Shown here: piece by piece, positions 12,722 to 16,679 of the stretch
Layout: each line of letters begins with the position of its first letter
Numbering within the stretch: position 1 is the first letter of the stretch
From: a virus
Reading direction: 5' to 3' (one strand)
IMG/VR virus record: IMGVR_UViG_3300030329_003761
Coordinates: 1-31,365 of that record
Length of the DNA stretch: 31,365 bases
Notes under the pieces: generated by a model
Database searches by the model: none
Told to the model about the DNA's origin: nothing
Seen by the model: only the letters and a program-made list of their open reading frames with translations
Position numbers and translations under genes: made by a program

Positions 12722-13480
12722 ATGCCACGAGTAGTAAGAGTCTCAGACATCAAAGCCAATTTATTAAGACCAGCGACTACTTCTCATTTTGAAGTAGAGA
12801 TACCTATATCTTGGAATCCTGTTTTTCAAAATAGGTGGGCGGGTGTTGGTAAACAATATAAAATTAATTTAATGTGTTCAGAGGCATCATTGCCTGGATC
12901 TAGTTTGGCTACATTTGAAACTAATAATGATAGAACTGGTGTAACAGAAAGATTTGTGCATCGTAGAATATTTGATGAAAGAATTGATTTTACTTTTTAT
13001 GTTGACGCAGGATTATATCAACCGATTAAATTTTTTGAACAATGGATAGATTTTATTACTGGAGCAGCAACAGAAGGTGAGAATAAATTAAACAATGCAG
13101 ATTATCATTATAGAATGAAATATCCTAATGATTATATTGCTGATCAGGGATTGAAAATTACAAAGTTTGAGAAAGATCATCAAAATCCTTTAACTTATGA
13201 ATTTATTAGATCATACCCTCTTTCAATAACTTCAATGCCTGTTTCTTATGATGGGTCTTCATTGTTGAAGTGTTCAGTTTCAATGACTTATGTTAGATAT
13301 ATCATTCAAAATCTTGATAAGGTGTATACATTACCCCCATCTCCGATTCAACAAGCACAGTTTAATGGTGGATTCTTAAGTAATATTGCAGGTAATTTAG
13401 TTGATGCTGCAGTAGATAGAGTAACAGGTAATGATAGGTTGGGAGATTTTGCTGGAGCAACCGTCAGAACATTTTTATAA
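12722..13480 (+). CDS. 54: Baseplate tail-tube initiator gp54
   Basis: This 252-residue protein begins MPRVVRVSDIKANLLRPATT and is built like a tail-tube protein. It contains HFEVEIPISWNP, SEASLPGSSLATFETNNDRT (the lipid-clamp-like LPG segment of tube proteins) and RRIFDERIDFTFYVDAGLYQ. Later come FFEQWIDFITG and SYPLSITSMPVSYDGSSLLK followed by CSVSMTYVRY. T4 gp54 shares the P-x-S-I-S-S-P-x-L-S-Y-D-G pattern, as do tube proteins. In T4, gp54 sits on the gp48 cap and starts tube assembly. A gp19-like tube protein is the main alternative, but the place beside gp48/gp4/gp26 favours gp54. Confidence 0.8.
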   Translation: MPRVVRVSDIKANLLRPATTSHFEVEIPISWNPVFQNRWAGVGKQYKINLMCSEASLPGSSLATFETNNDRTGVTERFVHRRIFDERIDFTFYVDAGLYQPIKFFEQWIDFITGAATEGENKLNNADYHYRMKYPNDYIADQGLKITKFEKDHQNPLTYEFIRSYPLSITSMPVSYDGSSLLKCSVSMTYVRYIIQNLDKVYTLPPSPIQQAQFNGGFLSNIAGNLVDAAVDRVTGNDRLGDFAGATVRTFL

Positions 13481-13520: not shown

Positions 13521-14240
13521 ATGCCTTTACCAAAAATTGCTACCCCAACATATGAGTTGGAGTTACCCTCGACAGGACAATCGATTAAATATAGACCATT
13601 TCTAGTTAAAGAAGAGAAGGTTCTTGTAATCGCTCTTGAGAGTGAAGATAATAAACAGATCACAACTGCAATTAAAGCAGTTCTTAAAAGTTGTATTCTC
13701 ACTAAAGGTGTGAAGGTTGAATCTCTTCCCACTTTTGATATTGAATATCTATTTTTAAATATTCGTGGTAAGTCTGTTGGAGAAGAACTTGAAGTTAATG
13801 TGATTTGTCCTGATGATGGAGAAACCACAGTTCCAGTGGTAATTAACTTGGATGAGATTGAAGTTCAAAAAGATGAAAATCATTCAAACAAAATCAAAAT
13901 AGATGATAGTATTATGATGGAGTTAAAGTATCCATCTCTTGATCAGTTTATTAAGAATAATTTTGATTTTAATGATAAGAATGCAATGGATCAATCATTT
14001 GAATTAATTGCATCATGTATTGATAAAGTTTATACTGAAGATGAAGTTTGGGCAACTGCTGATTGCACTAAAAAGGAAGTTAAAGAATTCCTTGAGTCAA
14101 TGAATTCCCAACAATTTAAAGAGATTGAAGAATTTTTTGAATCGATGCCTAAATTATCTCACACCATTAAGGTTACTAATCCTAATACAAAGGTTGAAAG
14201 TGAAGTGACATTGGAGGGATTAGCGTCTTTTTTCGTGTAG
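13521..14240 (+). CDS. 26: Baseplate hub protein gp26 (tail chaperone-like)
   Basis: This 239-residue protein belongs to the T4 baseplate family of gp26. It begins MPLPKIATPTYELELPSTGQ and contains IKYRPFLVKEEKVLVIALES, LPTFDIEYLFLNIRGKSVGE, VICPDDGETTVPVVINLDEI and a C-terminal FLESMNSQQFKEIEEFFESM. A CPDD segment sits where relatives carry a zinc or redox Cys motif; only one Cys is present there. In T4 it is needed for hub assembly. The last codons run TCT TTT TTC GTG TAG, so the gene ends on a T TTT TTC slippery heptamer five codons before the gp51-like ATG. A -1 shift would bypass the stop. Confidence 0.87.
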   Translation: MPLPKIATPTYELELPSTGQSIKYRPFLVKEEKVLVIALESEDNKQITTAIKAVLKSCILTKGVKVESLPTFDIEYLFLNIRGKSVGEELEVNVICPDDGETTVPVVINLDEIEVQKDENHSNKIKIDDSIMMELKYPSLDQFIKNNFDFNDKNAMDQSFELIASCIDKVYTEDEVWATADCTKKEVKEFLESMNSQQFKEIEEFFESMPKLSHTIKVTNPNTKVESEVTLEGLASFFV

Positions 14241-14251
14241 CCCTACTGCAC
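14228..14251 (+). promoter_or_regulatory. Probable programmed -1 ribosomal frameshift site (gp26/gp51-like)
   Basis: T TTT TTC at 14228-14234 is a canonical X XXY YYZ heptamer in the gp26 frame. After a -1 shift the frame CGT GTA GCC CTA CTG CAC runs straight into ATG 14252 with no stop, giving a 299-residue fusion. Immediately downstream, GTGTAG (14235-14240) can pair with CTGCAC (14246-14251) in six pairs, one of them wobble. The gp51-like ATG has no visible ribosome binding site. This mirrors G/GT tail chaperone shifts; it is not experimentally known here. Confidence 0.6.
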
Positions 14252-14419
14252 ATGAGTTTAGAGGATTACTTTAAACTAAATTTTGCCTTGATGCAGTATC
14301 ATAAATATAGCTTGACAGAGATTGAAAATATGATGCCTTGGGAACGAGACATCTACGTGGCTCTACTACAACAACATCTTGAGGAAGAAAAGTTAAAGCA
14401 GCAACAACAGAATGGCTAG
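14252..14419 (+). CDS. 51: gp51-like baseplate hub assembly protein, 55 aa
   Basis: This 55-residue product starts MSLEDYFKLNFALMQYHKYS and contains EIENMMPWERDIYVALLQQH before a Gln/Glu-rich end. The pattern of a short helix, then M-P-W-E-R-x-I-Y-x-x-L-L, is typical of the C-terminal partner domain in tail assembly chaperones and of cyanophage ORFs called gp51. It is far shorter than T4 gp51 (about 249 aa). The frame is -1 relative to gp26, and the gp26 end is a slippery heptamer. The gene may therefore be translated mainly as an extension of gp26. It overlaps the following gene by eight bases. Confidence 0.72.
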   Translation: MSLEDYFKLNFALMQYHKYSLTEIENMMPWERDIYVALLQQHLEEEKLKQQQQNG

Positions 14420-16679
14420 TAAAAAACCTAGTATGATAGATGCTCTGAGGGCAAAGCATGATCCTCACTATCAACTAGCGGGTAAAGTTGAAAGTCTTGG
14501 AAAAGATATACCTATTCAACTTGCTCAATTACATAAGACATTAAGTAAGTCCTTTGCAATGCAGAGGAAAACTTTAACGCGCGTTCTTGGTCTTGAAAAA
14601 AAAGTTGCTGAATTAGAAGAAGAAAGAGCAGTAGAAGAACAAGCAAAAAAAGGTATAGATGATATATTAGGTGATATACGTGGAGAAGAAGATGAAGAAT
14701 TTGATGCTGCTCATGCAACACCAGAAGAAGTAGAAGAATATAACTCTTCAGTTCCAATGACGGATGAAGAGAAAGAATTTGTTGGAGAAGAATCAAAATT
14801 TGATGCACAGGATAAATCTGTTTCTACAAAGACAAAACCAAAGAAAAAGAAACCAAAGATAAAAGCTAAAAAAATAAAGATAGATGCTGATAAATTTAGG
14901 AAAGGAACCGCAATAGATGATGGATTCAAATCGAGAGTGATGGGTGAAGATGAAAAGGGAGGATATCTAAGTCCTGAAGATAGGAAGTTTCGTTTTAAAA
15001 GGGGTAATGATGGAGCAACAGTAGATCCAAGTAAACTTCTCCCTACTGATGAAAATCAAGAAGGGGAAGCAAGTGGTCCTGTAAAGGATATTCTTTCGAG
15101 TGTTGTTTCTATAGAGGAAACACTGAATAGTCAATATCAATTGCAATTAGAAGGTGCAAAGGAACAAAAAGAAGAAGCAGAGAAGAAAAGAAGAGGTGCT
15201 CGTGAGAAAATGTTGGAGGGTGCTGGTAAAATATGGGACGGAATTAAATCAACTGGTGAAAAAGTAATCAAACCATTTCAAAGTATATGGAGTAAAATAT
15301 TAGGATTTATTCAAACAATCTTTTTTGGAAGAATATTTTATAAAATATTAGAATGGATGGGTAATAAGGATAATCAAGGTAAAATACAAAGTATTATCAA
15401 ATTCTTTAAGGATTGGTGGCCAATGTTACTAACAGCATATTTGTTGTTTGGTAATGCCTTTGGTCGAATGGCAGTCAAGTTAGGTGTGACTGTAACTAAA
15501 TTTGCCGTTAAACTTGTGACTAAACTTATACCTAAGATGTTAGCAGGGTTGGCTAAATTAAAAGCAGGTAAAATATTGAAAGGTGGTTTGATTGGTGGTG
15601 CTTTATTGGGTGCTGGTGTAATAGCTGGTAAAATGATGTCTGGTGGTAAAGATGAGGGTTCTCCTGATTTGCAACCTACTGGAGAGGATACACCACCAGT
15701 AGAAGCAGAAGGTGGTGGTTTAATAGAAAAATATGAAAGTGTTATATCTGAGTTTAAAGAAGGTGGTTTTGTATCAGGTCCAGGTGGAGTAGATAAAGTT
15801 CCTGCACGATTAACTGCTGGTGAGTTTGTGATGTCTAAAGGTGCAGTTCAGAAGTATGGTGTCAATACTCTTGCAAATATGAATGCTGCTGGAGGTGGAA
15901 CCAATAGACCAACAATAGGTAGATATAATGAAGGTGGTAAGGTTCAAACTATGAGCGAAAAGTTAGGACATACTAGGGGTACTGTAACTGATCCAAAAGA
16001 GAAAAAAGCACAAGAAGATTATATGCTTGAGTGGGTTAATAAAGAAAGAGTAGAATTTCTGGGATTGCCTCCTTTAGATAAATTGACTTATGCGGATGGT
16101 GTGGAACTTACAAAGGAGATGGGTGCAGATCTGCATAGAGTAAAAGAAGAATCACATACTGATATGGATTTTGATAATATGATTAAGACTACATCAAGAT
16201 CAAAAACAGTCGGTGATAAAACTATTTTTGAAGGATCAATGGGTTTATTAACAGAAGAAGATAAGCAGCAGTATCTTGCATCAAACCCTGGAGCAAGAAT
16301 GATGCTAGAGCTTAAGGAACAGGTTGAACTAGATGCTTTAGGTGCTGATATATCTGCAAGTGCAAAAATGAATGGTGGTGGTTTAGTTCAAGGATTACAA
16401 GGTGGTGGTCTTGTTCAAGGATTCCAAGGTGGTGGGCAAGTAAGGCAAATGGGTAGAGGAGCTTCAAATAATAGAATGAAATTATCTGCTCAACAAAAAA
16501 GAAGGAATACTCCTGGAACATCATCTGGAAAGAAAACAACAGTTGCTTATCAGGATCAAGGTGGTTCTATGAAGTCTGCTGGTGGAGCACGTCAACCAGG
16601 TAATAAGGAACTACCATCTTTTTCTGCAACAGCTATGAGATCTCCTGATAAAATAAGAGTATTGGGGATATCGGTATAA
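14412..16679 (+). CDS. Tape-measure-like tail protein 1, 755 aa
   Basis: The N-terminal 120 residues form a coiled coil with acidic parts, then a Lys-rich tract (about 139-160). A second coil is at about 240-280, and hydrophobic helices at about 292-316, 335-385 and 388-410 could be the membrane-active or tube-filling part. The segment GPGGVDKVPARLTAGEFVMS (about 456-475), then KGAVQKYG, is a motif often seen in phage tape measure proteins. Near the C-terminus GGGLVQGLQ/GGGLVQGFQ/GGGQV repeats occur at about 653-675. Position after gp26/gp51 and before the gp27-like hub fits the T4 gp29 tape measure slot. The adjacent gene is built alike. Which of the two sets tail length is unclear. Confidence 0.65.
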   Translation: MASKKPSMIDALRAKHDPHYQLAGKVESLGKDIPIQLAQLHKTLSKSFAMQRKTLTRVLGLEKKVAELEEERAVEEQAKKGIDDILGDIRGEEDEEFDAAHATPEEVEEYNSSVPMTDEEKEFVGEESKFDAQDKSVSTKTKPKKKKPKIKAKKIKIDADKFRKGTAIDDGFKSRVMGEDEKGGYLSPEDRKFRFKRGNDGATVDPSKLLPTDENQEGEASGPVKDILSSVVSIEETLNSQYQLQLEGAKEQKEEAEKKRRGAREKMLEGAGKIWDGIKSTGEKVIKPFQSIWSKILGFIQTIFFGRIFYKILEWMGNKDNQGKIQSIIKFFKDWWPMLLTAYLLFGNAFGRMAVKLGVTVTKFAVKLVTKLIPKMLAGLAKLKAGKILKGGLIGGALLGAGVIAGKMMSGGKDEGSPDLQPTGEDTPPVEAEGGGLIEKYESVISEFKEGGFVSGPGGVDKVPARLTAGEFVMSKGAVQKYGVNTLANMNAAGGGTNRPTIGRYNEGGKVQTMSEKLGHTRGTVTDPKEKKAQEDYMLEWVNKERVEFLGLPPLDKLTYADGVELTKEMGADLHRVKEESHTDMDFDNMIKTTSRSKTVGDKTIFEGSMGLLTEEDKQQYLASNPGARMMLELKEQVELDALGADISASAKMNGGGLVQGLQGGGLVQGFQGGGQVRQMGRGASNNRMKLSAQQKRRNTPGTSSGKKTTVAYQDQGGSMKSAGGARQPGNKELPSFSATAMRSPDKIRVLGISV

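Follow-up and report, generated by a model that had tools for sequence, protein, structure and literature searches.

A gp26 gene with a probable -1 frameshift site would encode short and long tail assembly chaperone forms in a cyanophage-like contig

In the 31,365 nt stretch analysed here (the window), which is an IMG/VR virus record and belongs to an uncultivated cyanophage-like contig, gp26 and the reading frame following it in the -1 frame very probably constitute one gene, from which two forms of a tail assembly chaperone (TAC) would be made through a -1 frameshift. A preliminary description of this DNA had proposed that the gp26/gp51 pair follows the G/GT logic of such chaperones. This is strongly supported by what is seen directly: the sequence and its conservation, the codon choice at the slippery site, selection on the -1 frame, a match to a chaperone fold, the gene order, and the presence in T4 of a long-form paralogue, gp51.

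Slippery site at the end of gp26

The gp26 gene (13521-14240; all features given here are on the plus strand) encodes 239 amino acids, matches PF12322 (E 3e-77) and phrog_150 (E 1.7e-80), and is read by us as the short chaperone form, TAC-N. Its 3' end is TCT TTT TTC GTG TAG, where T TTT TTC (14228-14234) lies 10 nt before the stop and stands in the X XXY YYZ phase of the 0-frame, as a -1 slippery heptamer would. A -1 shift at this site would bypass the TAG at 14238-14240 and continue as CGT GTA GCC CTA CTG CAC into the ATG at 14252, in a frame that is open to 14416 and closed by the TAG at 14417-14419. The extension (14234-14419), annotated as gp51 in relatives, is the putative TAC-C domain (phrog_634, E 2.6e-27; pN/pS 0.38 in the part between the gp26 stop and the ATG) and the gp51-like frame also matches the C-terminal end of phrog_150. 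Joining 13521-14234 to 14234-14419 gives by translation a predicted TAC-NC fusion of 299 amino acids. The in-phase heptamer, the stop-free path and the length of the fusion had all been put forward in the preliminary description, and each agrees with the coordinates and translation obtained here. When the 43 window ORFs of at least 80 amino acids were compared, gp26 was the only one to combine an in-phase heptamer in the final 30 nt with at least 40 open codons in the -1 frame.

The T tract, its phase and the -1 path, whose comparison across gp26/gp51 junctions had been suggested earlier, are well maintained in relatives. We compared 84 homologues, consisting of 80 viral-contig loci and the phages S-SSM5, Syn1, phiM7 and Vibrio nt-1, a listing in which the window is also present. 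The same heptamer was found at position -10 from the gp26 stop in 83 of them, the exception being phiM7 with the variant T TTT TTT at -13. All 84 have an open -1 frame. The more general motif T TTT TTN is present in distant phages as well (Nitratidesulfovibrio SRB7757, Stenotrophomonas Bhz51, Aeromonas CC2, Vibrio V07, P-SSM3 and Delftia PhiW-14), in groups which include Menderavirus, Emmerichvirinae (CC2), Pootjesviridae and schizoT4. The site is T TTT TTG in Rhizobium RHph_I1_9 and T TTT TTA in Pseudoalteromonas XG4, while T TTT TTN is located at -13 in Agrobacterium OLIVR5 and at -7 in Synechococcus MA01. Positions -7, -10 and -13 in different phages indicate that the distance to the stop can differ by one codon, the heptamer and its phase staying the same. 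New loci were few or absent in homologue scans that used proteins of Ackermannviridae, Aeromonas, Vibrio, Desulfovibrio, Rhizobium and Stenotrophomonas phages, and a search of plasmids gave 0 matches.

Other types of sites were also observed. In Ackermannviridae (loci L106:2790-2965, L107, L108, L093 and L097) and in Vibrio phages (L092, L109) a gp51-like domain, often unannotated, lies 3' of gp26 in the -1 frame, and T TTT TTN is replaced by NTT TTC; in the Ackermannviridae loci no ATG precedes this domain. The site of Serratia phage Kevin is G GTT TTC, which we take to resemble that of T7 gene 10. In one Stenotrophomonas phage (L104:1700-1841) the gp26 ORF continues beyond the usual stop and the T tract is apparently one base shorter, a change which may be a homopolymer sequencing error.

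Codon choice and the start of the gp51-like frame

The two phenylalanines at the slippery site are encoded by TTT and then TTC in 82/82 distinct cyanophage genes, sequences which share descent, as do those behind the 69/69 given below, so that neither count represents independent events. In the same genes TTC accounts for 26% of Phe codons, and other Phe-Phe pairs are encoded as TTC-TTT (57), TTT-TTT (24) and only once as TTT-TTC (1/82). The codon preceding the pair ends in T in all 82, compared with 49/82 expected from codon usage. By these codon statistics the heptamer is kept beyond what amino-acid constraint explains. A natural control at the sequence level is provided by the split-gene phages T4 and Erwinia COW86c, where the two phenylalanines of gp26 are retained, encoded as TTC TTT or TTC TTC, and the heptamer is absent.

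Downstream of the site, the first -1 codon encodes Arg in 69/69 aligned sequences. Its third base varies freely; in the overlapping 0-frame codon this same base comes second, and that codon drifts among Ala, Gly, Val and Glu. For the stretch separating the gp26 stop from the ATG we obtained a pN/pS of 0.38 when read in the -1 frame, versus 1.2 and 4.0 for the two others. As judged from these substitution patterns, selection acts on the protein encoded in the -1 frame already upstream of any ATG.

This bears on the simpler possibility that two separate proteins are made, the T tract being incidental and gp51, as conventionally called (14252-14419, 55 amino acids), initiating after the gp26 stop at its own ATG, through reinitiation or a leaderless-like entry. 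It is in accordance with such initiation that the codon at 14252 is Met in 63/69 relatives and that stop and ATG are close, with a gap of 11 nt in the window and an overlapping TAATG in some phages, for example nt-1. If gp51 started there, however, the stretch with pN/pS of 0.38 would be untranslated, and the Arg codon and the hydrophobic -1 codons before the ATG are under selection; the invariant TTT-TTC also speaks against it. The preliminary description had noticed that the ATG at 14252 lacks a visible ribosome binding site and indeed no SD-like 4-mer was found before it, nor at 122 of the 127 candidate gp51 ATGs (5/127 with the 4-mer, versus 42/83 gp26 starts in 83 loci). Start codons are displaced in some relatives and missing in one (L056), which has no ATG, GTG or TTG within the first 14 codons. 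Separate initiation is for these reasons very unlikely, and the ATG at 14252 is possibly not a real start. In Aeromonas phage CC2 (L088, 3203-3370) the gp51-like -1 ORF is unannotated in the RefSeq record, and no ATG is visible 5' of its conserved domain.

Candidate stimulatory elements

The candidate stimulator of the proposed frameshift is an SD-like GGAGGG at 14213-14218, 9 nt upstream of the heptamer. Its predicted pairing with the anti-SD in 83 cyanophage genes is stronger than in synonymous-codon shuffles (-7.3 vs -6.0 kcal/mol; Wilcoxon p 9e-6, not corrected for phylogeny), and at seven control positions it is much weaker than here. The Glu codon within the element is GAG in 66/82 genes vs 27.6 expected. 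On this sequence evidence GGAGGG is a better-supported candidate stimulator than the small hairpin over the gp26 stop (14235-14251) described earlier. That hairpin does appear as the predicted minimum-energy fold, but it is not conserved, with 42.8% of cells pairing, which equals the shuffles, and it adjoins the heptamer directly, with the usual spacer missing. It was rejected as a conserved stimulator. Another predicted hairpin, of 9 bp (14255-14277, 20 nt downstream of the heptamer), is weakly conserved. RNAalifold predicted no consensus structure for 69 junctions, and no well-conserved structure downstream of the heptamer was established from the relatives' junctions and predicted folds.

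Most cyanophage relatives possess a 5-bp palindrome around the gp51 ATG, GRTYC-AYAT-GRAYC, which starts 10 nt 3' of the heptamer (columns 18-31 of alignment A3 of the window homologues). It covaries beyond shuffles and slides and also beyond synonymous permutation (0/1000), but the tree-based covariation test had too few supported pairs, and the window forms only three of its five pairs.

A T tract at the gp26/gp51 junction could also lead to the fusion by transcriptional slippage, with RNA polymerase adding or dropping a U, and the apparent one-base change in L104, where the ORF runs beyond the usual stop, may be seen in this light. Such slippage normally needs tracts of about nine or more. 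The tract here is six T long, relatives do not have longer ones, it keeps a constant phase with respect to the reading frame, and the SD-like element points to a mechanism at the ribosome, all of which makes this explanation extremely improbable, even more so than separate initiation.

T4 and other split-gene phages

In T4 and 44RR genes 26 and 51 are divergent. Both T4 gp26 (208 amino acids) and T4 gp51 (249 amino acids) match PF12322; in gp51 the match extends over residues 1-201 (E 3.9e-52) and is followed by a phrog_634 tail. T4 gp51 aligns along its full length with the profile of the fusion (98.3% probability, E 1.3e-14). A gp26-like domain joined to the gp51 tail means that in the split-gene group each form, short and long, has a gene to itself. 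At the sequence level, a short form and a C-terminally extended long form are thus found both as a -1 fusion in many phages and as a single ORF in T4 gp51, a genuine fusion which also argues against gp51 being a separate protein in the window. T4 shares with the window a gp26-like domain and the same type of C-terminal tail, and differs in that its pair is separate and lacks the heptamer, the long form being a paralogue in one ORF.

Fold and gene neighbourhood

Modelling gp26 with AF2 gave a mean pLDDT of 85.9, and the structure that the model matched best was 2OB9, the tail assembly chaperone of HK97 (Z 7.9 over 84 residues at rmsd 4.0), followed by 3FGX (Z 7.8) and YqbN 3KLU (Z 7.2), the next match being at 4.9. 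The match to 2OB9 is of moderate strength, with Z under 8, and covers residues 1-86 only. Foldseek alone on the model gave a non-significant E of 0.9, and sequence searches of the PDB found no solved relative. The model supports, with moderate strength, a tail-assembly-chaperone fold for gp26.

On the 5' side gp26 is preceded by a clear tail-tube-like gene of gp54/gp19 type (12722-13480; phrog_45 E 1.3e-28, PF23849 E 2.3e-16). On the 3' side lies an ORF of 755 amino acids (14412-16679) which is weakly tape-measure-like: among the PHROGs it matches are several named "tail length tape measure protein", with a best E of 9e-8 and with part of the similarity in stretches that may be hydrophobic or of low complexity, and a Pfam search with it gave no match. 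The preliminary description had called gp26 and gp51 a baseplate hub pair. This is a legacy name, as is "hub assembly catalyst", and TAC-N/TAC-NC fits better.

Proposed mechanism and known systems

We infer the slippage, its efficiency and the action of the chaperone on the tape measure as follows. Most ribosomes would terminate at the TAG at 14238 and produce the short form of 239 amino acids. A fraction would pause on T TTT TTC, aided by the SD-like GGAGGG upstream, and the two Phe-tRNAs would slip one base back, from UUU UUC to UUU UUU. Reading would then continue with CGU GUA GCC to give the 299-amino-acid TAC-NC. By analogy with lambda gpG/gpGT, the extra helical domain of the long form (the gp51 tail) might recruit the tape measure protein, which the short form would coat.

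With lambda gpG/gpGT and other TAC frameshifts of siphoviruses and myoviruses the window would share the order of tube, short chaperone, frameshifted long chaperone and (here only weakly) tape-measure-like gene, and with the HK97 chaperone, as far as the model indicates, the N-terminal fold. The lambda heptamer is G GGA AAG, whereas that of the window is U UUU UUC. The window gp26 also differs from lambda-type TACs in its greater size and in having additional domains behind the chaperone-like N-terminus, and sequence similarity to them was not detected.

Closer systems are found among T4-like phages. Vladimirov, Gautam and Davidson (Virology 2022, 566:9-15) reportedly found frameshifting in several T4-like groups, with T4 genes 26 and 51 said to be a separate pair. 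Of the papers citing this work, one (PMC12846349) describes TAC-N genes of T4-like phages as having poly-T slippery sites, and another (PMC10885494) describes some T4-like phages in which the short and the long TAC each have a gene of their own. The preliminary description knew of no account of frameshifting at gp26/gp51; the principle was published for T4-like phages in 2022. The gp26/gp51 genes and the short/long logic are common to the window and the 2022 work, no difference is established, and the window is another uncultivated cyanophage-like contig. The frameshift signal of the window is already described in kind, and our independent set of sequences reproduces the known picture without a new mechanism.

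For T4-like and Ackermannviridae-type myoviruses as a whole we offer a tentative scenario, conceivable although somewhat more doubtful than not. An old frameshifted chaperone would be present in most of them, with more than one kind of slippery site: U UUU UUN and, in Ackermannviridae, whose -1 domain frequently lacks annotation, N NUU UUC. Stimulation by the SD-like element and by a small stem downstream would be an addition of cyanophages, and in T4-type phages two genes would have taken the place of the frameshift.

If gp26 and gp51 are one frameshifted chaperone gene, annotation would be corrected in many cyanophage genomes, which list them as separate baseplate hub proteins. T4 gp51 would gain an explanation from its sequence, as a long-form chaperone, and the gp26/gp51 junction offers an easily tested putative frameshift site.
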